DNA of 64,000 nt from positions 62,001-126,000 of the forward strand of contig WRLM01000004.1 in the NCBI GenBank assembly GCA_009777615.1, given 5' to 3'. The stretch's first letter is position 1. Every line of letters begins with the position of its first letter. This stretch comes from Candidatus Methanoplasma cognatum. GTDB taxonomy: Archaea; Thermoplasmatota; Thermoplasmata; Methanomassiliicoccales; Methanomethylophilaceae. Position numbers and translations under genes: made by a program. This document shows, piece by piece, positions 17,655-39,989 of this stretch. The notes below the pieces were generated by a model. The model had not been told where the DNA came from. It saw nothing but the letters and a program-made list of their open reading frames with translations, and ran no database searches.

Positions 17655-20600
17655 TCAAGGGTGTTTCGTTCCGTCCTCCACCTCGTCCTCTTTTCTCCTG
17701 CGCCACAGCAGCAGAAGCAAAAGTAAGATCAGGAACAATGCAATCCCAGCTATCAGCCAGGGGAAGCCGCCGCCATCCTCAGTGAAGTACAGGTCCAGAC
17801 CTATGGACGAATTGACCTCCAGAGATATCTCCGAACTGGCGTATACGGCTGCTCCCTGCCGCCACTCCTTGAACTGGTATCCGTCGCCTGCGTATGCTCT
17901 CAGTTCGACCGAGGAACCTCCCTGCAGGGAGACCGTCTCCGTGTATGGTACGAAGGGCGACCCATTTATGCTGTATTCCACGCGGCCGTCTCCGTCCTTT
18001 ATTTCGATCGAAAGAGTGACGACCGCCCTCGGGCCGGTACCTCTGGCATCAATGGTGTGGCTCATCGCGACATTGCGGAAGGTGTAGTATCCTTTCGCAA
18101 CATCTTCCGGAGAGAGGGGCATGCCGTCCACCGTTACCGTAGCGGCGGAGAAGAAGAATGTCGCACTCCCTCCTCTGCTGACAGTAACTTTCCCTTCCGG
18201 AGACATGGTCGCGCCCTGGCTGGATGTCGCGGTTATGATATATTGCGCGGTGGTCAAGGAGGGGACGACCCTCTGTTCCAATAGGTGGGAGGCGGAAGCG
18301 TTGAAGTTAGAGTTCCCAAGATACTCTGCGGTAACAGGATGGATACCCAGACCCAGCGCCGCCGTCGCAAGGGTCGCTTTACCGGAAGCGTCCAACGCAG
18401 CTGTGCCGATGAGGACGCCGTCATCATAGAACTCGACCGTGCCGACAGGTATGCCGGTGCTGGGCAGTACGGCGGTGACGGTGGCAGTGAAGGTGACCGA
18501 TGCGCCTGTCAGCGAAGGATTCGGGGCCGATATTATCGAGGCAGTGGTGTCTGCAGGGCTTACCATAAGGCTCACTGGGGCGGACCCTGAGGTCGCGTAA
18601 CAGTAGTCCCCCCCGTAGACTGCGGTGATCGTGCGGGCGCCGGCGTCCAGAGCAGACGTTGAGAAAACAGCTATGCCGCCTGCGCTGAGTATGCCGCCGC
18701 CGATCGGGACGCCGCCGTCATAGAATTCGACCTCATCACCCGGTATGCCGGAACCGGGGCCGATGACGGTCACCGTTGCGGTGAATGTCACGGTCTGCCC
18801 ATGCACCGACGAGGCCATGTTCGAGGAGAGCGTGGTCACTGTGTCAGCTTTGCTCACTGTGTGGTCAAGCGCGGATTCGGAGGCGTTGTAGTAACCGTCG
18901 CCGATGTAGGCCGCTTTGACCGGACGGATACCTACACTCAGCGCAGCCGTCGAGAATACAGCTTCGCCGTTGATATCGAGAGCAACGGTATCCGTCAGAA
19001 TGCCGTCGATATAGAAGCAGACATCCCCTGTCGGCGTACCCGCGCCGGCAGCGGTCACCGTTGCGGTGAATGTCACGGTCTGCCCATAGACAGATGAGAT
19101 AAGGTCTGAGGAAAGTGAGGTCGCCGTATCCTCTTCGCTCACTATGTAGCTCAACGAGACGGTTCCTGAGGTGTTGTATTCGGCGTCTCCCCCGTAGACG
19201 GCCGTGATCGGATGGGTGCCTACGATCAACGCTGCAGTAGATAGGACGGCCTTTCCGTTGATATCAAGCACGTCGCTACCGATCAGCGAGCTGCCGTCAT
19301 AGAACTCGACGGTGCCTGTAGGCGTACCGGAGCCGGATCCCGCGGCCTCCACCGTGGCTGTGAAGGTAACCGTGCCTCCGAAGACAGATGATGCCGGGTC
19401 CGCTGAAAGCGATGTCCCGGTGTTCGCTTTGGTCACTTCGTGGCCCAACGAGGCGGGCCCGGAAACGTCATAATTGCCGTCTCCGATGTAAGATGCGGTG
19501 ATCGTGCGGCTGCCTACGCTTGACAATATTACGGACAAGGCCGCTTGGCCGGAAGCGTCCAGCGGGGCCGTGCCGATAGGAACGCCGTTGTCATAGAACT
19601 CGACGTCGCCTGTCGGCACGCCTAAGCCTGTGCCTATGACGTCCACACTGGCGATGAAGGTCACTTCCTGCCCATAGGCGGAAGAGGCAAGGTCCGCCGT
19701 CAGTGATATCGCGGTGTCCGCCGCGATCACCGTATGGACCACGCCGATGTTATCTTGTGAGGTGTCGTAATTGTCATCTCCCATATATTCGACGGTTATG
19801 GTATGGGGGCCTGCGCTCAACGCTGACGTAGAGAAGGCCGCTTGGCCGGAAGCGTCCAAAGTAGCCGTGCCGATAGGGATGCCGCCGTCATAGAACTCGA
19901 CGTCACCCGTCGGTATGCCTAAGCCTGTGCTTGCGTCGACCACTGCGGCGCTGAACGTCACGCTCTGCCCGTAAACAGAAGACAGGGCAGGGCCGGTCAG
20001 CTGGGTATCGGTCGTTGCTTTGTTAACTACGTAAGCGGTACTTGCGGAGGCGGAAGACAGTAAGCTTGCGTCCCCTGCAAATTCAGCGGAGATCGCATGG
20101 CTGCCTACGCTCAGCTGTATCGGTATCAGAAGAGAAGCGACCCCGGACAGATCACATGAACCTGTTCCGATAATATCCGCGCCGTCATAGAATATGATGG
20201 TCTTGCCGGACAGATCTCCTTCGCTGCCAGGCAATACAACCGAAAGCGTCGCGGTGATCGTTACGCTCTGTCCGTACACCGCCGGGGAAGCAGGCGCAAC
20301 GGCGATGCTGACCCCGGTCTGCGCTCTGTCCACATCATGCTCGGTCTTTCCCGTGCTTCCGTTCATGTTCACGTTGCCGTCGTACTTGGCGGAGATCGTG
20401 TTTATGCCAAACGGCAGAGGAACAGAGATAGAGGCAACCCCTAAAGAGTTGCAGTTATCTGATCCGATGACCGTTGCGCCGTTATAGAAGATAATGAGTT
20501 TCCCGTTCGCCGTGTCGCCGATGATATCCAATATCGAAAGCGTCGCGGTTATTGTCACAGTCTCTCCATGCACGGAAGTGCCAGGTGTGACAGAGACGCT

Positions 20601-23600
20601 TACTTCGGTATCGGCTTTGTATATGTCGTATACGAAATTCGCCGATTCGGTCCCGTTCAGATAGGCGCTGCCCTCGAACACGGCTTTGATAAGGTGTTCG
20701 CCGACAATCAATATTCCCATATCGATCAGATCGACCATACTGATGGTGAAGTAAACGCCGCCTGTGCCATCGCTGTTGCTTTGGCCCAGAAGTACGCCGT
20801 CCACGTAGAAGCTGACCGTCTTGCCCGCCAGCGTATCGTAGCCGGGGGGCACCACCGCCAGATGCGCGATGGCCGTTACCTGAGTGGTCTCGACTATTAT
20901 GGCGGCTACGACAAGGGCGGTATCCGCTTTGTTCACTGTATGCGGCACTCCCGCCGCTGAGGATGAGCCGCTGTAGTAGCTGTCGCCGCCATAGGCCGCT
21001 GTGATGTTGTGGCCTCCGAGAGACAGACTGTTTATCAAGAGGGAAGCAACGCCGGATTCATCGCAGGCCGCGGTCCCTATGAGCGCACTCCCGTCGTAGA
21101 AAGTGACTGTGCCGGAAGGCACGCCGCTTCCAGCATGACCGGGGGTCACGTGGGCATAGAAAGTGACATCTTCCCCATACATGCTCGGGCCGCCGCCGGA
21201 GGTCACCGCAGTCAAAGTGCTGTCCGTCACTGTGATGTTCAGGCAGGTGCCTCCGGTGGTTGTTACACCCAGGAAGGTGAAGTGGACCGGTTTGTCTCCG
21301 ACTGTGTGGGTGTCTACGCTTTCGGAGGTGTTGGTCATGCCTGGCTCTGTGTAAGAAACGCCGCTGTCGGTACCGTTTGTGTACTCCAGGGTCAGCAGCG
21401 TTCCGGTAAGGTCGATCGTTTCTCCGATGGCATATGTTGTTTTTGCGGGATCGGTGCCGACGGCGATGCCGATAAGCGAGTTTGCGCTCTCCTCGACCGC
21501 ACCGTAGGTGACGGCGCCGGCTTTCGCGCGATCCGCGCCGGTTTGATCAAAGGCAAGAGCTGCTAGGGCATTATCCACAGCCATTCTTTCGCCTGAGGAA
21601 AGGGTCGAATAGCCAAGGATATCGGAGATGGTGACGGCGGCGGCCGTTCCTGCCGCGATGCCGTTTGTAAGCACATTCTTGGTGCCGGTCGCCGGGTCGA
21701 ATACGTTAAGTCCGAAGACCCGCCTGTGAGTGGTGGGGCCGCTTTGGATCGGTATCCCCTCGATCAGGTTCCTTCCGGCGGTATAGTTGACGGTGCCGCC
21801 TCCGTAGGTCTGCAAAAGTGCTGTTCCGGCCGCGTTGGTGTTGCCGGTGACTATACAGTTGTACAGGTATGCGGTTCGCCCGCTGTCAGCGTAGATCCCC
21901 CCGCCCCTGTTGTTCGTTATCGTGAGATGGAAAAGATATGTCTTCGTTGCACAGTCGATCCCCCCGCCGTCAGTCGCTGTGTTATCGGTGAAGGTACAGT
22001 TGGTCAGGACCATCAGCGAGCCATTGTGCGCGCTCACCCCCCCGCCGGCGACCCTTGCCGTATTGCCTGCAAATACGCAGCCGGTAAGGAAGGCGTTGTT
22101 ATTCGTCCATATGCCGCCGCCGTTGCCGTTTGTCGCGTTGGTGGTCTCGTTTCCTGTGAAGATGCAGTCGGTGGCCGTTACGGGGCCCCATGAACGCACC
22201 CCGCCGCCGTTGCCGCCGGTCGCCCTGTTGTTGGTGAAGGCACAGTTGGTCAGGCTGGTGTTGCTGTTCCCGTAGACCCCGCCGCCCGCGGAGGTCGATC
22301 CGTTGCCGGTGAAGATGCAGTTCTCCAGGACGGCGGTGCCTCCTGAATAGACCCCGCCGCCCGAAGAACTCGCGTTGTTGCCGGCGAAGATGCAGTTCAT
22401 CAGCGTAACGGCGCCTCCGGCATAGATCCCGCCGCCGGTGGAGCCTGTCCTGTTGCCGTCGAAGTCGCAGTTCTGTGCGGTGACGTTGCCGTTGCTGTGT
22501 ATCCCGCCGCCGCTGTTAGAACCGGTGGTCCTGCCGTTCTTGATGGCCAGGCCGAAGTATTGCGAAGATCCGGAGTCGATCTGGTTGAAGACACGCCACG
22601 TCTTGTATGTCGCGTCCACGGTGATCTCCGGGGCGCCGTCAATGCCGAGGCGCCCGTAGATAACAATGTCTTTGGAGAATATGATCTCACTCCCCGTCTG
22701 GATATTGAACGTACTGCCGCCGGTCGAGGAATCATGGCTGTCAAAATAAACCACACGCCAATTCTCCGCTCCGCCGTCGTTATCGGCGTCGGTCACGCAT
22801 TGGCGCAGGGAACCGGCCCCGCCGTCGCTGCTGTTCGTGACGATCCAGCTCTTTGCGGTCCAGTTGACGGCGCCGAAGAGGCAGTTGGCTGAGGCTCGCA
22901 GGTTCCCCGCCGCATCTCTTTCATGACCCGTGATCACCGCCGCGCCGCCCGCAATACCGGACAGCGGCATGATATAGCCGAATGTGAAGGTGTTGTTCCC
23001 GAACCATGCCGCATAATCGTCGGTGCCGGTTCCGAGCAGGTTGCTGCCGCCGAGGGGGAGGTTGCAGTTTCCTTTCAGCAGATCTTCTGTCATCAGGCAG
23101 TTATCGGCTGAGACAGAAGAGCCGGCGTATACATTGTACACATTATTGTTCACCTGTTCGTTGCAAGTGAACGTGCAGTGGCGCAGGACCGCGCTGACGC
23201 CGGCATCCACGACGCCGGTTTCGGTACCGGGGCTCGCAATGGAGTTCGCAAAGAAAGTAGTGTTGTCCGCAATGACGTTGTCTGAATAGACCGTGCCGTA
23301 CAGTGAACTGTTATCTGCAAAGCCGCAATTTATGAGCGTAATGGAGCCGCCGGCATATATCCCGCCGCCGCTGGTCGCCGTGTTGCCGGTAAATATGCAG
23401 TTGGTAAGCACGGCATCGGCGACCGCCCGCACCCCGCCTCCGTCGCCGGATGCGGCGCCGTTCTCGATCGTCAGCCCTTTAAGCGTCAGCGTGCCCGCGG
23501 GCGCCGTACTGTTCAGCAGGCGGAAGCTGGATGCACCGATGCGCTGTATGGTCACGCCGGCCCCTCCGTCTATAGTTATGTCAGGCAGATCGAATAAGAT

Positions 23601-23855
23601 CTCGCCGCTTGTCAGCGTGACAGCGGTCACTGACGGATCGAATCTGATGGTATCGCCGTCTTCCGCGGCAGTGAGGGCCGCACGCAGGGAGCCGTCGCCG
23701 GCGTCATTGCCGTTGGTGACGACAAGTGCATTCCCCGCCCCAGCTCCCTCCGCCATGGGGGAGGGCAGGCCGAGCATGGCCGTGGCGGTGAATAACATCA
23801 GGATTATCAGCATTACCGCCGGTATATGTCTGGGTGTGTTCGTTTTTGTTTTCAT
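17655..23855 (-). CDS. Giant surface protein: beta-helix (Pmp-like) N-terminal half, ten Ig-like repeats, C-terminal membrane anchor
   Basis: About 2066 residues from ATG 23855 (MKTKTN); GAGGAG precedes it by six bases. A signal peptide covers residues 1-40. Residues ~45-760 form a parallel beta-helix with two long blocks of repeats like NCIFTGNTATSGGGIYAGG, matching the GG(I/V) and FTGN motifs of chlamydial Pmp-type helices. A Big_4-like domain follows, then ten Ig-like (Big_3_5-type) repeats of ~90 residues (SVYGQSVTFTATV ... GTPTGTVEFYDGGVPIG ... YGGDxxYxxS). The end holds a two-part stalk module, a transmembrane helix WLIAGIALFLILLLLLLLW and a basic-acidic tail. The C-terminal module recurs in the 31992-37538 protein. 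Adhesion or shielding is inferred. Confidence 0.85.
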   Translation of the reverse strand: MKTKTNTPRHIPAVMLIILMLFTATAMLGLPSPMAEGAGAGNALVVTNGNDAGDGSLRAALTAAEDGDTIRFDPSVTAVTLTSGEILFDLPDITIDGGAGVTIQRIGASSFRLLNSTAPAGTLTLKGLTIENGAASGDGGGVRAVADAVLTNCIFTGNTATSGGGIYAGGSITLINCGFADNSSLYGTVYSDNVIADNTTFFANSIASPGTETGVVDAGVSAVLRHCTFTCNEQVNNNVYNVYAGSSVSADNCLMTEDLLKGNCNLPLGGSNLLGTGTDDYAAWFGNNTFTFGYIMPLSGIAGGAAVITGHERDAAGNLRASANCLFGAVNWTAKSWIVTNSSDGGAGSLRQCVTDADNDGGAENWRVVYFDSHDSSTGGSTFNIQTGSEIIFSKDIVIYGRLGIDGAPEITVDATYKTWRVFNQIDSGSSQYFGLAIKNGRTTGSNSGGGIHSNGNVTAQNCDFDGNRTGSTGGGIYAGGAVTLMNCIFAGNNASSSGGGVYSGGTAVLENCIFTGNGSTSAGGGVYGNSNTSLTNCAFTNNRATGGNGGGVRSWGPVTATDCIFTGNETTNATNGNGGGIWTNNNAFLTGCVFAGNTARVAGGGVSAHNGSLMVLTNCTFTDNTATDGGGIDCATKTYLFHLTITNNRGGGIYADSGRTAYLYNCIVTGNTNAAGTALLQTYGGGTVNYTAGRNLIEGIPIQSGPTTHRRVFGLNVFDPATGTKNVLTNGIAAGTAAAVTISDILGYSTLSSGERMAVDNALAALAFDQTGADRAKAGAVTYGAVEESANSLIGIAVGTDPAKTTYAIGETIDLTGTLLTLEYTNGTDSGVSYTEPGMTNTSESVDTHTVGDKPVHFTFLGVTTTGGTCLNITVTDSTLTAVTSGGGPSMYGEDVTFYAHVTPGHAGSGVPSGTVTFYDGSALIGTAACDESGVASLLINSLSLGGHNITAAYGGDSYYSGSSSAAGVPHTVNKADTALVVAAIIVETTQVTAIAHLAVVPPGYDTLAGKTVSFYVDGVLLGQSNSDGTGGVYFTISMVDLIDMGILIVGEHLIKAVFEGSAYLNGTESANFVYDIYKADTEVSVSVTPGTSVHGETVTITATLSILDIIGDTANGKLIIFYNGATVIGSDNCNSLGVASISVPLPFGINTISAKYDGNVNMNGSTGKTEHDVDRAQTGVSIAVAPASPAVYGQSVTITATLSVVLPGSEGDLSGKTIIFYDGADIIGTGSCDLSGVASLLIPIQLSVGSHAISAEFAGDASLLSSASASTAYVVNKATTDTQLTGPALSSVYGQSVTFSAAVVDASTGLGIPTGDVEFYDGGIPIGTATLDASGQAAFSTSALSAGPHTITVEYMGDDNYDTSQDNIGVVHTVIAADTAISLTADLASSAYGQEVTFIASVDVIGTGLGVPTGDVEFYDNGVPIGTAPLDASGQAALSVILSSVGSRTITASYIGDGNYDVSGPASLGHEVTKANTGTSLSADPASSVFGGTVTFTATVEAAGSGSGTPTGTVEFYDGSSLIGSDVLDINGKAVLSTAALIVGTHPITAVYGGDAEYNTSGTVSLSYIVSEEDTATSLSSDLISSVYGQTVTFTATVTAAGAGTPTGDVCFYIDGILTDTVALDINGEAVFSTAALSVGIRPVKAAYIGDGYYNASESALDHTVSKADTVTTLSSNMASSVHGQTVTFTATVTVIGPGSGIPGDEVEFYDGGVPIGGGILSAGGIAVFSTSALDAGARTITAVYGGDYCYATSGSAPVSLMVSPADTTASIISAPNPSLTGASVTFTATVTAVLPSTGIPVGTVEFYDDGVLIGTAALDASGKATLATAALGLGIHPVTAEYLGNSNFNASASHLLEQRVVPSLTTAQYIITATSSQGATMSPEGKVTVSRGGSATFFFSAATVTVDGMPLSPEDVAKGYYTFRNVAMSHTIDARGTGPRAVVTLSIEIKDGDGRVEYSINGSPFVPYTETVSLQGGSSVELRAYAGDGYQFKEWRQGAAVYASSEISLEVNSSIGLDLYFTEDGGGFPWLIAGIALFLILLLLLLLWRRRKEDEVEDGTKHP

Positions 23856-23918
23856 CGTCATCTCCTCTCTGGAACGTTTCCTATCCCCCTATATATCCAA
23901 GAATGGCGCTCTATAAGT

Positions 23919-31749: not shown

Positions 31750-31887
31750 GCTACACTTTCCTGTCTTTCCGTACAGCAGTCCATTTGATAAAGGTTTTCA
31801 GGCGAGGACATGCGGCCTCGCCCCACCTGATGGCATGGGCGGCTGTATATAGGGCGCCGTCCTCCCTCCTGATGTCAAGACAGGCAC

Positions 31888-31903
31888 GCCGTGCCGGCAC
31901 GGC
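31888..31903. promoter_or_regulatory. 16-base perfect palindrome between thrB and the Gly-rich surface-protein gene
   Basis: GCCGTGCCGGCACGGC is fully self-complementary. It sits in the 242-base divergent intergenic region and could be an operator for either gene. No other copy was noticed in the window. Confidence 0.3.
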
Positions 31904-31928
31904 GGATTCCGTCGAAACTGTTTTATCT

Positions 31929-31941
31929 TCTCTATATAAGT
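31929..31941 (+). promoter_or_regulatory. TATA box of the Gly-rich surface-protein gene
   Basis: TCTCTATATAAGT lies about 60 bases upstream of ATG 31992. A GGAGGA ribosome-binding motif (31975-31980) follows, eleven bases before the start. Confidence 0.5.
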
Positions 31942-31991
31942 ACGTAATAAAAAGCAGGCCGGCCTCCGGGGCCGGGAGGAATGTGTTATTC

Positions 31992-34900
31992 ATGCGAACA
32001 GACAAAAAGAAAGTTATAGGGAGGGGAAAATGCTCATCAAGTAAGCTGTTGCTGACAGCGGCGCTCGCGGTGGCGATGCTAGCGGTCGCCGTCGCGGCGC
32101 TTATGGCGCCGACGGCGGTCGCCGCCTCCGGGGACGACGTCCCTTATATGGATGAGAATGGAGTAATGCAGATTTGCCCGACGGCCATCGTGCTGGAGGG
32201 CGGCGGTGCGACTGTGCTGAGCGACGGGTGGTATCTCGCGAGCGGCATGGTCAGCTATGACACATTGACAATAAGCGGCAGCGATGTCCACCTGATACTT
32301 GAGGACGGTTGCGACATGACCGTGATGTCCCCTGCCGGCGCGGGCATCCTCGTCACAGGGGCTGATAGCCTGACGATATACGCCCAGTCGGCAGGGACGG
32401 GTATGCTCACAGCCAACGGCGGTAGCGACGGCGGCGCGGGCATCGGCGGCTCCGGCGGCGGCAACGGCGGCGCGATAACCATCAACGGTGGTGTCGTCAC
32501 GGCCACCGGCGGCGGCAGCGGCAGCGGCGGCGCGGGCATCGGCGGCGGGCAGGGCGGCAACGGCGGCGCGATAACCATCAACGGCGGCATCATCACGGCC
32601 AACGGCGGCGGCAACGGCGGCGGCGGCAACGGCGGCGCGGGCATCGGCGGCGGCTCCGGCGGCAACGGCACCACCACCATAATCAACGGCGGCGCGGTCA
32701 CGGCCACCGGCGGCGGCAACGGCGGCGGCGCAGGCGGCGCAGGCATCGGCGGCGGGCAGAACAACGGCGGCTCCGGCGGCTCCGGCGGCACCATTATCAT
32801 CAACGGCGGCACGGTCACGGCCAACGGCGGCGGTTCCAGCGGCTCCGGCGGCGCGGGCATCGGCGGCGGGAGGAACACCAGCGGCGGCCCCAGCGGCTCG
32901 GTCGCCATCACCGGCGGCACGGTCACGGCCACCGGCGGCGGCCCCGGCAGCGATGGCATCGGCGGCGGCAACGGCGGCGCGGGCGCAACGGTCAGGATCA
33001 TAGGCGGCAGCGTCCTCGCCACCGCGGGGCCAGGCGGCGACCCTGTTGACGTCAGGCCGACGAACTACGCTCTGGACGACCTCTACTTATTCACAGTCAC
33101 AGTGGACCCCGCTCTGGGGGGCAGGGATGTAATCATCACGGACCTGACCGGCGCGGCATCATACTATATCTTCAAAGACATCGTGACGGACTCGGCGGGC
33201 AAGATATACCTGTGGCTCCCGGTGGGGATCACGAACATGAGCCTGGCGGTTGGCAGCAAGATATACGACGCGACCATGACCGTGCCCTTGGTGTCACCAG
33301 ATGATACAGGCGCGCTCACGGCGACCCTGTCTTCGCTCGTGCCCTACGTCGACGTGAACGGCGACATGCAGGTTTCGCCCTCAGCGCCCTCCGTGCTGAC
33401 GCCGGGCGCCCATGGCGCCACGGCGCTGGCAGCAGGATGGTACTACGCCGACGGCATCTTCACCTACTCGGGCACCATCACTATCAACGGCGACGTGCAC
33501 CTAGTCCTGGCGAACGACGCGGTGATGAACACCTGGGGCGACTATACGATCTTTGAGGGCGGCTTCACGGTCACGCCGGGGAGCAGCCTGTCTATCTACT
33601 CCCAGCCCGAGGAGGCCGGCTACGACATGGGCAGGGTCGTAGAGCAGAACGGGGATGCCGTCTTACTGCTCAATGGCTCCGCGCTCCTCAACACCGCCCA
33701 CATATCCGCCGTACTGTCTTCATACTTTGGCGTATGGGGGGACATTGCTGCCGCGGTCGCCGTCACCAACGGCGTCACAGGCACAATCCAAGGCGGCGAC
33801 ACTGGAATCCTCATCGATGGCCGCGCCTCGGTGGTCAACATGGGGGCGGTGACCGGGGCCAACGGGGTCTGGTTAGCGGGATTCGACGGGTCGGCGGGGG
33901 ACGTCTTCTCCAACTATGGCCTTATACAGGGCGCAACGGGAGGCACCGGGGTGTACGTCCAGAGCGGGACGGACGTACTCCTCGAGAACTATGGCACCAT
34001 CACGGCCGGCGAAGCCGGCATCTTCCTCATCGTCAGCGGTGAGGTCGAGAACCACGGATACATCGCGGCGACCGACGCGACCGACAGCTATGGCGTGTAC
34101 GCTTACGCCTCAACCACTGTCAGCAACACCGTGTCGGGCGCGGGCACAGGCGTGATCACAGGCGCCTATGGGGTGTTCATCAGAGTGGGGAACGCCTCGG
34201 ACACTATCACCAACACCGGCGGCCTGATCGAGGGCACCGACCCAGTGGTAGGGGTAGGCGTCAAGGTCGAAGGAGGGGCAGGCATGCTGGTCACCAACAT
34301 CAACCGCCTCCCTGACATTGGCACGATCATCGGCGCGTTGCACGGCATAGAGATGCCGAGCGGGGCGGTCGACAACGAGGGCCGCATCCAGGGCGGTTCC
34401 GCGGCGAGCCAGTACGGAGTGTACGTCACAGGCTCCGCGACCATTGACAATGCCGCCAACGCGACCATAACCGGTCACGGCGGGGTGCGCATCGGGAACT
34501 TCGTCGGCGGGCCGGGGAACGACACGTTCGCCAACAATGGCCTGATAGAGGGCACGACAGGCGACGGGGTGCACATCGACGCCGGGTCCGACGTCCTCAT
34601 TACCAACAACAGCGGCGGCGAGATCAAAGGCGGTAACCACGGTATCTACCTCGCCAGCGGCATAGTGGGCAACAATGGCTATATCGAGGGCGGCACGGCG
34701 GCTGGCCAGTACGGAGTGTACGTTACCGGCTCTGCCACGATAAACAACCCAGCCGGCCACATGATAACGGGCCATGGCGGGGTTTACATCGGGAACTTCG
34801 TCGGCGGGCCGGGGAACGACACGTTCGCCAACAGCGGCCTGATCGAGGGCACGTCGGGGAACGGTGTTCAGATTGATGCTGGGACAGATGTCCTGATAAC

Positions 34901-37538
34901 CAATAACGGCGTGGTCACAGGAGGCACCAACGGTATCTACCTCGCCAGCGGCACAGTGGGCAACAATGGCTATATCGAGGGCGGCACGGCGGCTGGCCAG
35001 TACGGAGTGTACGTTACCGGCTCTGCCACGATAAACAACCCAGCCGGCCATACCATAATGGGCCACGGCGGGGTGTACATCGGGAACTTCGTCGGCGGGC
35101 CGGGTAACGACACGTTCGCCAACAACGGTCGTATCGAGGGCACGTCGGGAATGGGCGTGCAAGTCGTGAGCGGGACAGATGTCCTGATAACCAATAACGG
35201 CGTGGTCACAGGAGGCACCCACGGGGTCGCCATTCAGAGCGGGGCGGTCGTCAACAACGGCTCGATCGTCGGTGTCGTCAACAACGGCGTCACCGGCTCC
35301 TCTGCTGAGGTCAGCAACAACGCAGGAGGCTACATAAAAGGCGGTGAGATCGGCATCTCCATCGGCAACGGCTCTGTGGACAACGCGGGCTATGTCGAGG
35401 GCGGCGCGGGGTTCGACCACTACGGCTTGTACGTAGCGGGGTCGGCGACGATAGACAACGCCGCCGGCGCAACCATCACGGGCCGCGTCGGAGTGTATAT
35501 CGGCGACTTCGACGGCGGGGCGGACACCTTTGACAACTCCGGCCTGATCGAGGGGATATGGTCTGACGGCGTGCAGATAGACGATGGAACAGACATCCTG
35601 ATAACCAATGACGGCTCGATTACGGGCTTGGGCGGCGGCCATGGAGTGTACCTCAACGTCAGCGGCGCTGTTCACAACGAGGGCGGGATCGCAGGTCTCA
35701 GCACCGGAATCTACGCCGAGGCCTCCGCCGATATATACAACGCCGCTAGCGGGGTGATCTCAGGCTACACGGGGGTACGCATAGAGGACTTCGTCGGGTT
35801 CGACGGGACGGCAGGCGACACCTTCGTCAACTACGGTCTGATAGACGGCACTTCCGGGAGCGGCGTGTTCATCGCCGCCGGGAGCGACGTCCTCGTCGAG
35901 AACGGCGCCGGCGGTGTCATCAACGGCATCAACAACGGGATAGAGATGGCTGAGGGCACGGTGTACAACTACGGCACTGTCTACTGCGCCCCCGGCGGCG
36001 AGTACGGCATCCGCATCGGCGGCGCTGGCTCGGTGAGAAACAACACGGGAGGCTACATCGAGGGCCCCAGCGGCATCATGGCCGGCTGGCTAGACTACGG
36101 CGACTACGAGATAACCAACTACGGCACCATCAAGGGCAGCCCGAGCAACGGCATTGAGGTCGCCGATGGGGACATACCATTCGTAAACAACTACGGCACG
36201 ATCATAGGCGACTCGTCGGGTATAGTGTTCGTCTCGTACTCCTTTTATGCAAGGGTGGACAACTCCAACGCAGGTTCCATCACAGGCGGCGACGACGGCA
36301 TAGCCTTCATGGGCGTCAGCGGAGGCGTGGTCAACAACTACGCCCCGACCTCGGTCATCGTGGGCGGGAACAACGGGATACTTGCCAACACCGCGGGCAG
36401 CTTGACAGATGTGATCAACAACGGCTCCATCACCGGCACGGCAGGCGACGGCGTCCAGCTCGCCGGCGGGGGCCTAATCGAGAACCACGGGGGCATAACC
36501 GGAGGGGCCAACGGCATAGTCGCGGCAGACGCGGCCGACTTCATGAACGACAGCACGGTGTCCGGCAATGTCGTGCTGAACGGCACCGGCAACTTCGTGG
36601 TGTCCGTCCCAGGCAGTGTGATCACGGGTGATCTCTCCCTTGGCCCGCTGTCGTCGCTGTTGTTTGTTGACACCCCCGGCGCCCCCCCTGTCTACTTGAC
36701 AGTTGGCGGCAACACGGACATAGGCAACGCGGTCGTCGACATCGACCCGGTCGGGCTGCCTGCCGGCCTTGTCCCCGGCGATACCCTCGTCCTCATCGAC
36801 GGGAGCGCCGGGACTATGACGGGGACGCCTGCTAACACGACGCTCGCCGTCGGAGGATACAACTTCCGGATAGAGGTGAATGGCGATCAGCTGACCGCCG
36901 TGGTGTTCATACCTGCCACGTCCCCCACTTCAAGGACGTACTACGTGACCGCGACGTCGGACTCGTCCTCGAGTCTATCCCCTGTCGGAAAGGTGGCTGT
37001 GACCGGCGGGACGAGCCAGACGTTCGCTTTCTCGGCGAACGCCGGCTATGTCGTGTCTTCAGTGACCGTGGACGGCATGGCGCTCTCGCAGGCCGACATA
37101 GACCTGGGGCAGTACACCTTCCGTAACGTGGGCACGAATCACTCCATAGACGTGAAGAGCAGGGTGGCCGGCAACGTGCCCATCAGGATAGGCACGGGCG
37201 ACGGCGGCCACGCCGAGTACAGCGTGAACGGCGGCGCGTTCCAGAGGTACACAACAGGGACAACCTTCCCGGAGGGCTCCCAGGTGACCCTGAGGGCGGT
37301 CGCCGACGACGGCTACGAGTTCGAGGAATGGGTTATCGGCGGCGCTTTCTACTACACACAGGAGATTACCCTCGACAGCAGCATGCTGGCAGGGGACATC
37401 CAGCTCTACTTCACCGGCGGCCCCGACGACGGCTACCTGATATGGATAGTCATCGCTGTTGTGATCGCCGCGCTGATACTGCTGACGATCATATTTGTGC
37501 TGTACAGGAGGAAGGGCTCGGAGGCCGGGCGCAGCTGA
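31992..37538 (+). CDS. Giant surface protein: Gly-rich domain, beta-helix repeats and C-terminal membrane anchor
   Basis: About 1848 residues from ATG 31992 (MRTDKKKVIG); the frame is open further upstream but lacks a ribosome site. A signal peptide ends near LMAPTAVAAS. Next is a carbohydrate-binding-like strand module (GWYLASGMVSYDTLTISG), repeated later as GWYYADGIFTYSGTITING. A Gly/Asn-rich tract follows with repeats like GGAGIGGGQGGNGGAITING. A long beta-helix of autotransporter style covers ~residues 550-1550 (GVYVTGSATINNPAG ... GNDTFANNGLIEGTSG). The end is a stalk module (SLSPVGKVAVTGGTS ... YFTGGPDDGYLIW), a transmembrane helix and RRKGSEAGRS. The C-terminal module matches that of the 17655-23855 protein. 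Surface adhesion or matrix role is inferred. Confidence 0.83.
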   Translation: MRTDKKKVIGRGKCSSSKLLLTAALAVAMLAVAVAALMAPTAVAASGDDVPYMDENGVMQICPTAIVLEGGGATVLSDGWYLASGMVSYDTLTISGSDVHLILEDGCDMTVMSPAGAGILVTGADSLTIYAQSAGTGMLTANGGSDGGAGIGGSGGGNGGAITINGGVVTATGGGSGSGGAGIGGGQGGNGGAITINGGIITANGGGNGGGGNGGAGIGGGSGGNGTTTIINGGAVTATGGGNGGGAGGAGIGGGQNNGGSGGSGGTIIINGGTVTANGGGSSGSGGAGIGGGRNTSGGPSGSVAITGGTVTATGGGPGSDGIGGGNGGAGATVRIIGGSVLATAGPGGDPVDVRPTNYALDDLYLFTVTVDPALGGRDVIITDLTGAASYYIFKDIVTDSAGKIYLWLPVGITNMSLAVGSKIYDATMTVPLVSPDDTGALTATLSSLVPYVDVNGDMQVSPSAPSVLTPGAHGATALAAGWYYADGIFTYSGTITINGDVHLVLANDAVMNTWGDYTIFEGGFTVTPGSSLSIYSQPEEAGYDMGRVVEQNGDAVLLLNGSALLNTAHISAVLSSYFGVWGDIAAAVAVTNGVTGTIQGGDTGILIDGRASVVNMGAVTGANGVWLAGFDGSAGDVFSNYGLIQGATGGTGVYVQSGTDVLLENYGTITAGEAGIFLIVSGEVENHGYIAATDATDSYGVYAYASTTVSNTVSGAGTGVITGAYGVFIRVGNASDTITNTGGLIEGTDPVVGVGVKVEGGAGMLVTNINRLPDIGTIIGALHGIEMPSGAVDNEGRIQGGSAASQYGVYVTGSATIDNAANATITGHGGVRIGNFVGGPGNDTFANNGLIEGTTGDGVHIDAGSDVLITNNSGGEIKGGNHGIYLASGIVGNNGYIEGGTAAGQYGVYVTGSATINNPAGHMITGHGGVYIGNFVGGPGNDTFANSGLIEGTSGNGVQIDAGTDVLITNNGVVTGGTNGIYLASGTVGNNGYIEGGTAAGQYGVYVTGSATINNPAGHTIMGHGGVYIGNFVGGPGNDTFANNGRIEGTSGMGVQVVSGTDVLITNNGVVTGGTHGVAIQSGAVVNNGSIVGVVNNGVTGSSAEVSNNAGGYIKGGEIGISIGNGSVDNAGYVEGGAGFDHYGLYVAGSATIDNAAGATITGRVGVYIGDFDGGADTFDNSGLIEGIWSDGVQIDDGTDILITNDGSITGLGGGHGVYLNVSGAVHNEGGIAGLSTGIYAEASADIYNAASGVISGYTGVRIEDFVGFDGTAGDTFVNYGLIDGTSGSGVFIAAGSDVLVENGAGGVINGINNGIEMAEGTVYNYGTVYCAPGGEYGIRIGGAGSVRNNTGGYIEGPSGIMAGWLDYGDYEITNYGTIKGSPSNGIEVADGDIPFVNNYGTIIGDSSGIVFVSYSFYARVDNSNAGSITGGDDGIAFMGVSGGVVNNYAPTSVIVGGNNGILANTAGSLTDVINNGSITGTAGDGVQLAGGGLIENHGGITGGANGIVAADAADFMNDSTVSGNVVLNGTGNFVVSVPGSVITGDLSLGPLSSLLFVDTPGAPPVYLTVGGNTDIGNAVVDIDPVGLPAGLVPGDTLVLIDGSAGTMTGTPANTTLAVGGYNFRIEVNGDQLTAVVFIPATSPTSRTYYVTATSDSSSSLSPVGKVAVTGGTSQTFAFSANAGYVVSSVTVDGMALSQADIDLGQYTFRNVGTNHSIDVKSRVAGNVPIRIGTGDGGHAEYSVNGGAFQRYTTGTTFPEGSQVTLRAVADDGYEFEEWVIGGAFYYTQEITLDSSMLAGDIQLYFTGGPDDGYLIWIVIAVVIAALILLTIIFVLYRRKGSEAGRS
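32420..33010 (+). repeat. Gly-codon-rich short tandem repeats
   Basis: Runs of GGCGGC-type codons build imperfect 60-100-base units (GGCGCGGGCATCGGCGGC, ATCAACGGCGGC, ACGGCCACCGGCGGCGGC). Units recur about six times with changes in length, which suggests slippage and expansion. Confidence 0.7.
34380..35250 (+). repeat. 291-base tandem repeats encoding beta-helix units
   Basis: Three consecutive units of 97 codons begin near 34380, 34671 and 34962. The last two are nearly identical over long stretches (for example AACAATGGCTATATCGAGG at both 34671 and 34962). This suggests recent duplication or gene conversion within the surface-protein gene. Confidence 0.75.
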
Positions 37539-37719: not shown

Positions 37720-38181
37720 ATGAACGTTCAAGTCATCGGTATCAAGTGCGATATAGGATTCGACGAGATAGTCCGGCACTTCACGGAGATGGGAGGGGAC
37801 GTAGTACTTTTGGATCCTGACATGGTCTGCGGCAGGGACCACATCATTTCGGCCGCGACGCATGCGGAAAGAGCGTTCAGGAATGGCACGAACAGGTCGA
37901 AAACGCTGCTGACAGAAACGATCTTATACGCAGCGGGCGAGAGGCAGATAGGCCGCGCGATGGAAAAGATGAGGCCTAAAGAAGGCAGGTATGAAATGGT
38001 CGCCGTGCTGTTCGGCACAGATGATCCGAAGCTCGGCCTGATAGGTGCGGAAAGATGTGACGTCATCATGGAAGCGTCCCCGGAAAAGGTGAAGAACCTC
38101 GGCGCGGATCTGTTTGACGGAATATCATGCGAAGATGCCGCTTTGGAGCATGTGGCTATGTCAGACCTTTTGAAACCTTGA
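37720..38181 (+). CDS. cgi121: KEOPS complex subunit Cgi121
   Basis: A 153-residue protein. It shows the Cgi121 pattern: VVLLDPDMVCGRDHIISAATHAERAF, a helix SKTLLTETILYAAGERQIGRAMEKM, then YEMVAVLFG. Cgi121 binds the tRNA 3' CCA end for the t6A-forming KEOPS machine. Pcc1 is encoded separately at 5804-6067. The gene stands alone, followed on the same strand by an unrelated nuclease gene. Confidence 0.85.
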   Translation: MNVQVIGIKCDIGFDEIVRHFTEMGGDVVLLDPDMVCGRDHIISAATHAERAFRNGTNRSKTLLTETILYAAGERQIGRAMEKMRPKEGRYEMVAVLFGTDDPKLGLIGAERCDVIMEASPEKVKNLGADLFDGISCEDAALEHVAMSDLLKP

Positions 38182-38372
38182 TCCCGTTGCGACCGGCGGT
38201 GCCTGCACTACATGGTCAGTTTTTTCATGGTCACTTTCGGTCGATTCGGAGACCCCCTAGTCAACCTTTTAAGCAAAAAGGAGCATCAAAAACTACTCTC
38301 AGAATGGGGACAGGTCCAGCACCTTTTTCAGAAAAGGCGGACCAAAGCCGCCAGGCAGAGGGGAGGGAGAAC

Positions 38373-39404
38373 ATGCAAAGAGAACCGAACAAAGAAACAA
38401 TGGCAAAAGACCATTCCGATTTCAAAGAGATCTTATCCATCATCGAACGTACTCGCGAGAACGTTTTTCGCTCCGTGAACCGTGAACTCATCTCAATGTA
38501 TTTGGATATCGGGCAGTATGTCAGTGAAAAGGTTGCCGCCGGTAATTGGGGAAAGTCTATAGTGCAGAGCCTTTCACAATCAATCCAATCGCATTTTATG
38601 GGAATAAAAGGCTTTTCTCCCCAGAATATATGGCGCATGAAACAGTTCTATGAGTTGTATAAAGGGAATGAAAAACTCTCGCCACTGGTGAGAGAAATCA
38701 GCTGGACCAACAACATCCTGATAATGATGGCGGCGAGAACTGACGAGGAGCGGGAATTTTACCTGTTACTCTCGGCAAAGAACAACTACTCCAAACGCGA
38801 GCTGGAGCGGCAGATCAGCAGCAGTCTGTATGAACGGACAATGATCTCCGCAGAGAGAGACCAACCCGCCCTCTTTCAGAACACCCAGCATGCCTTATTG
38901 CGCGATAGCTATGTGCTTGAGTTTCTGGACATCCCCGAGCGTCACAAAGAAAAAGAACTTCGCAGGGCGATCATAGCCAACATGCGTGACTTCATCCTCG
39001 AATTTGGTAAAACCTTCACATTCGTCGGCGAGGAATACCGCATACAAGTAGGCAGCACAGACTTCAGCATTGATCTGTTGTTCTATAACCGCGAATTGTC
39101 ATGCCTTGTTGCCGTCGAGCTGAAGGCCGGCCATTTCAAGCCGGAACATATGGGGCAGCTTGAGTTCTACCTTGAAGCTCTCGACCGTGATGTGAAAAGG
39201 CCGGACGAAAATCCAAGCGTGGGACTCATACTTTGCACGGGAAAGGATGACGCCGTTGTGGAATATTCCATGAGCCGCAGCATGTCCCCTGCGCTCGTGG
39301 CCGCATACCAGTTGTGCCTTCCCGATAAGGCTTTGCTTGAAAGCAAGCTACGAGAACTGAAAGAGTTCGCAGAGTTAGAAGAAAGCGACGAGGAAGAGAA
39401 TTAG
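38373..39404 (+). CDS. PDDEXK-fold nuclease of the DUF1016 (YhcG) family
   Basis: About 343 residues from ATG 38373, with GGGAGG eight bases upstream. The N-terminal DUF1016 helical domain (SVNRELISMYLDIGQYVSEKV ... GFSPQNIWRMKQFYELY) is followed by a C-terminal nuclease domain: FILEFGKTFTFVGEEYRI, FSIDLLFYNRELSCLVAVELKAGHFKPEHMGQ (the D...ExK catalytic core) and GLILCTGKDD. The family occurs in bacteria near restriction-modification and defence genes and spreads horizontally. This is the only gene in the window ending in TAG; reading through would add ten residues before TGA. No methylase is adjacent. Confidence 0.9.
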   Translation: MQREPNKETMAKDHSDFKEILSIIERTRENVFRSVNRELISMYLDIGQYVSEKVAAGNWGKSIVQSLSQSIQSHFMGIKGFSPQNIWRMKQFYELYKGNEKLSPLVREISWTNNILIMMAARTDEEREFYLLLSAKNNYSKRELERQISSSLYERTMISAERDQPALFQNTQHALLRDSYVLEFLDIPERHKEKELRRAIIANMRDFILEFGKTFTFVGEEYRIQVGSTDFSIDLLFYNRELSCLVAVELKAGHFKPEHMGQLEFYLEALDRDVKRPDENPSVGLILCTGKDDAVVEYSMSRSMSPALVAAYQLCLPDKALLESKLRELKEFAELEESDEEEN

Positions 39405-39557
39405 GATAAAGAATGCAGGCCGCAGGCCTTATGAACCTCCGACGAAACCATGAGTAGTAAGAGTTCCCCGCAGATAGATCAAGGAAGCAGTCCGAGCCCG
39501 GAAAGCTACGGCAAGCTCATACCTTCGGCGGAAATGTCCGCCTTATACAAGGGGAAC

Positions 39558-39989
39558 TCACTCGATCTTAAAGTCCTGCGAACTGAAGTTTGAGTAGTAC
39601 CTTCCCATGTTCGCAGTGAACCTCAGAACGCAGTAGTCCGGGTCGCTGACCCCTTGAGAATAATACATTGTGTACTTATCACCCCACAGCATCTCTTTGC
39701 TTGCAGCGTCCTCCAGCACCTCCATCGTACCTTTCAGCATCACGCCTCTGAAGAACCTTTTGTCGCAGAAGTAGATGCATGCTTTGGGATCCTTCCGGTA
39801 CTGAGATACCCGCATTGATGAAGTGTTCGTGTGGTAATAGAATGTCTTTATTCCCTCGCGCCTGCTCGGCGGCAGCATGGCCTTCGTGTTGGGAAAACCG
39901 TCTCCGTCCACCGAGCTTATGAATGATACTCCCTGTTTATCGATCAGGTTGCCGATCGTCTGTTCTGCGTCCTTAAGCATTCTTATCAC
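39558..39989 (-). CDS. Pyridoxamine 5'-phosphate oxidase-family flavin-binding protein
   Basis: A 143-residue split-barrel protein. It reads VSFISSVDGDGFPNTKAMLPPSRREGIKTFYYHTNTSS, then RVSQYRKDPKACIYFCD and GVMLKGTMEVLEDAASKEMLW, the order of the PNPOx-like FMN/F420-binding family. Such small members reduce or bind flavins; the substrate is unknown. It stands alone. The 150-base gap before it (39405-39557) contains only a short overlapping ORF with no recognisable signal. Confidence 0.85.
   Translation of the reverse strand: MIRMLKDAEQTIGNLIDKQGVSFISSVDGDGFPNTKAMLPPSRREGIKTFYYHTNTSSMRVSQYRKDPKACIYFCDKRFFRGVMLKGTMEVLEDAASKEMLWGDKYTMYYSQGVSDPDYCVLRFTANMGRYYSNFSSQDFKIE

Follow-up and report, generated by a model that had tools for sequence, protein, structure and literature searches.

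A TAG-terminated DUF1016/YhcG nuclease gene at a variable gene junction in a Methanoplasma genome with pyrrolysine genes

The nuclease gene and the Cgi121-PNPOx junction

The stretch of DNA analyzed here (the window, 64,000 nucleotides) corresponds to C4:62001-126000 of the Candidatus Methanoplasma cognatum genome, which comprises 1.62 Mb on 7 contigs. It contains a nuclease gene ending in TAG between two convergent genes, with the following features:

37720 to 38181, plus strand: Cgi121-family (KEOPS subunit) gene, left border, ends with TGA (PF08617, E=6.7e-11)
38182 to 38372: spacer from Cgi121 to the nuclease, in which no conserved end of a mobile element was found
38373 to 39404, plus strand: intact DUF1016_N plus YhcG_C PD-(D/E)XK nuclease gene, 343 amino acids (Pfam, PADLOC, catalytic residues)
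39072 to 39125, plus strand: codons of the predicted catalytic residues D234, E249 and K251 (IDLLFY ... VELK), from the alignment
39402 to 39404, plus strand: TAG codon at the usual C-terminal end of the family (sequence and tail lengths)
39405 to 39434, plus strand: possible read-through extension DKECRPQAL followed by TGA (sequence)
39405 to 39557: spacer between the TAG of the nuclease and the 3' end of the PNPOx-like gene, no repeat elsewhere in the sampled DNA
39558 to 39989, minus strand: PNPOx-like gene, right border, ends with TGA (PF01243, E=4.3e-15)

The assignment of the nuclease is based on matches to PF17761 (E=3.6e-41, 140.9 bits, cut-off 32.8), to PF06250 (E=7.9e-55, 185.4 bits, cut-off 32.5) and to the PADLOC profile PDC-S02 (E=7e-123). 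In an alignment of 27 sequences D234 and K251 are invariant and E249 is conserved in at least 90%. The nuclease domain of the AlphaFold model (mean pLDDT 75, pTM 0.44) matches NucS/EndoMS in fold, and the C-terminal tail is modeled with a pLDDT of about 45-59 and a weakly predicted helix. The gene shares with the DUF1016/YhcG family (PF17761 plus PF06250; PDC-S02) the full-length domains, the catalytic D/ExK residues, the usual length, the C-terminus and the stand-alone organization at an accessory site that varies, whereas the archaeal host and the TAG end are unlike the family in general. It is an ordinary stand-alone member of this PD-(D/E)XK family, a predicted nuclease and a candidate defence gene with a putative defence function. 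Its codon score lies at the 12th percentile, which is mildly atypical, and because of this weaker score the gene was missed at first by the gene caller; the GC content is 48% compared with 54% for the window.

Cgi121 was found in 14 of the 17 genomes of the genus, and the region behind it was readable in 14. In G015 the junction is empty with Cgi121 and PNPOx about 50 bases apart, G004 carries a Phd/YefM-PIN pair and G001 an SLFN_AlbA_2 protein between both genes, and G007 has a decayed DUF1016 gene behind Cgi121 at this junction. In the other nine readable genomes a ChsH2-type gene is located directly after Cgi121, and most congeners lack the nuclease at this junction. Because the contents vary among the genomes of the genus (window:38182-39557 and loci L166, L167, L170 and L171), the convergent Cgi121-PNPOx junction, as judged from the sequences, repeatedly takes up small defence or toxin-antitoxin modules. 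A blastn search for mobile-element ends around the nuclease against all sampled loci yielded nothing beyond a 28-bp match at another place in the genome, and neither a target-site duplication nor a recombinase was found. The motif GGGGACAGG upstream of the nuclease was discarded, as it is scattered and not specific. In G001, one contig (L147:350-1320) combines a 3' fragment of Cgi121, an adhesin-like 3' end and a nuclease remnant, as if it were a rearranged copy of the region. Two very long ORFs are also present in the window, 31785-37538 (plus strand, 1917 aa) and 17655-23861 (minus strand, 2068 aa); the product of the first is repetitive, rich in Gly and resembles a surface protein, with a membrane anchor at its C-terminus.

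Stop codons and pyrrolysine decoding

Genes in the window were called with a codon-score caller for which long ORFs of the same genome served as the training set. Apart from the nuclease, 47 genes were obtained, 37 ending with TGA and 10 with TAA and none with TAG, so that the single TAG among 48 genes reported in the preliminary description was reproduced. At the genome-wide rate of about 0.8% (see below) the probability of at least one TAG gene in 48 is about 0.29-0.35, and one such gene is therefore unremarkable, as it is expected in about one of three cases. The nuclease had been regarded as a lone exception, which holds for the window but not for the genome, where TAG also terminates two ordinary genes and the genes of a transposase, a toxin and an antitoxin.

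A census of stretches amounting to 1.25 Mb (77% of the genome) included all ORFs with a score of at least 12 and returned 987 ORFs, 740 with TGA, 234 with TAA and 13 with TAG. These 13 comprise two methyltransferase genes with a sense TAG, one DUF5050 gene in which TAG is probably sense and two doubtful ORFs. This leaves eight, of which six are intact, namely the nuclease, an IS5 transposase, a HepT-like toxin, an AbrB/MazE antitoxin, a MarR regulator and a type 2 isopentenyl-diphosphate isomerase (IDI-2), and two are fragments, one of a transposase and one of an AAA-ATPase (the latter named by reading). Several TAG "genes" of the raw census (L213, L211, L004, L122 and L111) were dropped as antisense or repeat-driven ORFs. 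TAG thus ends 8 of about 983 curated genes (six of them intact) or about 0.8%, compared with a TAG share of 18% among the stop trinucleotides in the sampled DNA, which bears out the assumption that TAG stops are avoided. This avoidance is real here and already known for the order, as TAG stops account for 1.6% in Ca. Methanomethylophilus alvus and for 11.3% in M. luminyensis (PMC4153887). Ca. M. alvus has the same complete pyl cassette, in-frame TAG codons in methylamine methyltransferase genes and very rare TAG stops (PMC4153887), but TAG is rarer still in the genome studied here and the remaining TAG ends belong mostly to mobile or toxin-antitoxin type genes.

The last point was evaluated with a comparison for which the classes were defined once the list was known and only few genes are available: 4 of the 6 intact TAG-ended genes (4 of 6-7 TAG-ended genes in the test) are of the mobile, defence or toxin-antitoxin type, compared with 2-3 of 30 random genes (Fisher P 0.003-0.015). 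The core gene IDI-2 (L117:11779-12837, minus strand, contig C2) ends with TAG and has a TGA five codons on. Together with the MarR regulator, this gene indicates that a TAG end does not require import, which counts against reading the TAG of the nuclease as a sign of import. A back-up stop behind TAG-ended genes was considered and rejected (median distance to the next stop 8 codons for five TAG-ended genes versus 20 in the pool, P=0.15).

The genes for pyrrolysine decoding are located at contig ends. On C1, pylT, pylS and pylB follow each other in this order; pylS at the end of the contig is over the cut-off with 289.5 bits and pylB runs off the contig. The putative pylT, a tRNA-like sequence with a CTA (CUA) anticodon before pylS, was identified by eye; a tRNA-Pyl was called by neither ARAGORN nor Rfam, and folding of the single RNA sequence did not give a full cloverleaf. 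At the end of C7, pylC is over the cut-off and the adjoining ORF reads as pylD, with pylB and pylD being assigned by position and sequence reading. Furthermore, two mtbB genes (named by sequence reading, L015) contain an in-frame TAG followed by 257-259 coding residues, and a PylS match over the cut-off is present in 14 of the 17 genus genomes. The presence of pylT, pylS, pylB, pylC and pylD together with the two mtbB genes indicates that the lineage can decode UAG as pyrrolysine; absent pyl genes or common TAG stops, which had been named as contrary signs, were both looked for and neither came true.

Relatives and origin of the nuclease

The best relatives of the nuclease in named genomes are from termite-gut Treponema, Acidobacteriota, Bathycorpusculum and Clostridia with 72-73% identity, and none above 74% was found. 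In a tree the nuclease is joined with a copy from G006 of the same genus (SH-aLRT 91, quick method), and both are placed inside the gut-bacterial set. A phylogeny had been proposed as a check of the import, and its outcome is divided: the position among gut bacteria fits an import, but the grouping with the copy of a congener does not fit a recent one. This sister gene in G006 is 68-70% identical, ends with TGA and is situated away from the Cgi121 site (1,010,888 versus 304,462 in an assembly of one contig with 1,488,669 bases). G001 contains a decayed relative with 81% DNA identity over 158 bp and, because decayed relatives are found in both G001 and G007, the family seems to have resided in the genus for a time sufficient for decay. 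The DUF1016 family is expanded and turning over in the own genome as well; at least seven further loci were detected, several of them broken by stops (C4:11007, C4:14857, C4:139870, C1:597098, C1:234124, C1:596546 and C1:225370), and the other intact copies end with TGA or TAA.

The notion that the family spreads horizontally is well in line with the nearest relatives in gut bacteria (up to 73%) and with a junction that is empty or filled with other cargo in sibling species, and a horizontal origin of the nuclease is supported by these sequence comparisons. The family circulates among gut bacteria. As to the direction and age of the transfer, which are inferred, we assume that it would have entered a Methanoplasma-like, pyrrolysine-decoding methanogen horizontally, in at least one event before or outside this species.

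A recent import, as proposed in the preliminary description, was not supported. With a TAG carried over from a bacterial donor and no time to change, it could explain that the nearest intact bacterial relatives are 72-73% identical, that 9 of 72 homologues from named genomes end with TAG, among them L038 from a termite-gut Lachnospiraceae (72%), and that the GC content is 48% versus 54%. Yet nothing above 74% was found, the best bacterial identity is 73%, the sister copy in G006 ends with TGA, decayed relatives are present in G001 and G007 and the codon usage is only mildly atypical, and we consider a very recent import improbable. The fraction of TAG ends is higher among the homologues from named genomes (9/72) than in the genus and family (1/19), a difference short of significance, and a genus-level TAG signal in the DUF1016 family was dismissed with only 1 of 19.

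It is also conceivable that the TAG arose in place by chance, for instance from TGA or TAA, in a long-resident gene, in which case it would say nothing on import. The TGA end of the G006 sister gene, the TAG ends of two non-mobile genes and the merely mild codon bias of the nuclease fit such an event, but TAG-ended genes are mostly accessory and the nuclease is missing at the junction in most congeners, and as a full explanation it appears rather unlikely to us. On the reading that we favor, horizontal entry of a gut-bacterial family, the TAG may either have come with the nuclease or have arisen in place, and it would have been kept because accessory genes, unlike core genes, are not purged of TAG stops. 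This account as a whole, from a gut-bacterial nuclease family over horizontal entry, a variable junction and an unpurged TAG to mixed products, seems probable. In the TAG of the nuclease we see a genuine yet rather ordinary mark left by a mobile accessory gene and not a unique event.

Termination and read-through at the UAG codon

The nuclease ORF ends with ...EESDEEEN-TAG, and the next in-frame stop is a TGA at 39432-39434, nine sense codons (DKECRPQAL) on. Read-through would therefore add pyrrolysine plus nine residues, which agrees with the ten residues predicted before. The tail after the LPDK motif comprises 28 residues in the nuclease and 21-39 residues in 67 homologues (median 26), and a tail of at least 38 residues, as it would result from read-through, is present in only 2 of these 67. 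No coding signal was detected in the extension (39405-39434), and no conservation past the TAG was found among the homologues, which end near this position. Predicted pyrrolysine proteins with an in-frame TAG and conserved downstream sequence (PMC4153887) share the codon and the kind of organism, but the nuclease does not qualify as one of them as it has no conserved sequence after the TAG.

Three further genes with an in-frame TAG were observed outside the methyltransferases. In G006 nothing but an in-frame TAG interrupts a double CbiX (cobaltochelatase) gene (L190:19065-19934, minus strand); CbiX is matched on either side, and the TAG aligns inside a conserved stretch of the second copy, so that it is probably a pyrrolysine codon. 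On C7 of the own genome, a DUF5050 repeat gene (L217:8115-9185, minus strand) has its TAG in register within a repeat, with a TGA after 40 more residues, and this TAG is probably sense, too. A transposase-like gene of G006 (L185:13705-15195, plus strand) shows an in-frame TAG, after which the coding-like sequence runs on for 101 residues. Because the double CbiX and the DUF5050 gene carry such codons, efficient UAG decoding in the genus is likely, which in turn makes an at least partial extension of the nuclease likely. Since TAG appears to be a sense codon in other genes of the genus, it is plausible that the nuclease is read through as far as the TGA after ten residues. Most likely UAG would give rise to a mixture of a 343-residue protein by termination and a 353-residue protein with pyrrolysine and DKECRPQAL that stops at the TGA. 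The extension, attached to the acidic, low-confidence tail that follows the catalytic domain, is probably neutral.

A stricter reading is that UAG is fully sense, every TAG encodes pyrrolysine and the 353-residue protein ending at the TGA is the sole product. Some archaea are reportedly argued to read all TAG codons as pyrrolysine, in a paper in Science from 2025. TAG ends only about 0.8% of the genes and thus less than the 1.6% of Ca. M. alvus, a value that has been taken as a sign of constitutive, efficient pyrrolysine incorporation (PMC4153887), and in-frame TAG codons lie in conserved sequence of the non-methyltransferase genes for DUF5050, double CbiX and probably the L185 transposase. 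On the other side, the TAG of the nuclease is located at the normal end of the family with nothing conserved after it, and six or so intact genes have a TAG exactly at their ends. We regard exclusive sense decoding as possible, though only tentatively so, and prefer mixed products.

Where the host decodes TAG as an amino acid, incoming TAG-ended genes would meet a small barrier, which seems to be weak given that TAG ends are concentrated in mobile and toxin-antitoxin genes of this genome. If all TAG codons in the genus were sense, mobile genes arriving with a TAG stop would gain a C-terminal pyrrolysine and a short tail, and the TAG-ended nuclease, transposase and toxin-antitoxin genes would encode incoming proteins with ends rewritten by the host code; we consider this generalization doubtful. 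The TAG-ended genes provide a short list of proteins for measuring read-through by mass spectrometry. A further TAG-ended ORF in G006, at 11660 of L185, has a weak match to an IS110 transposase.
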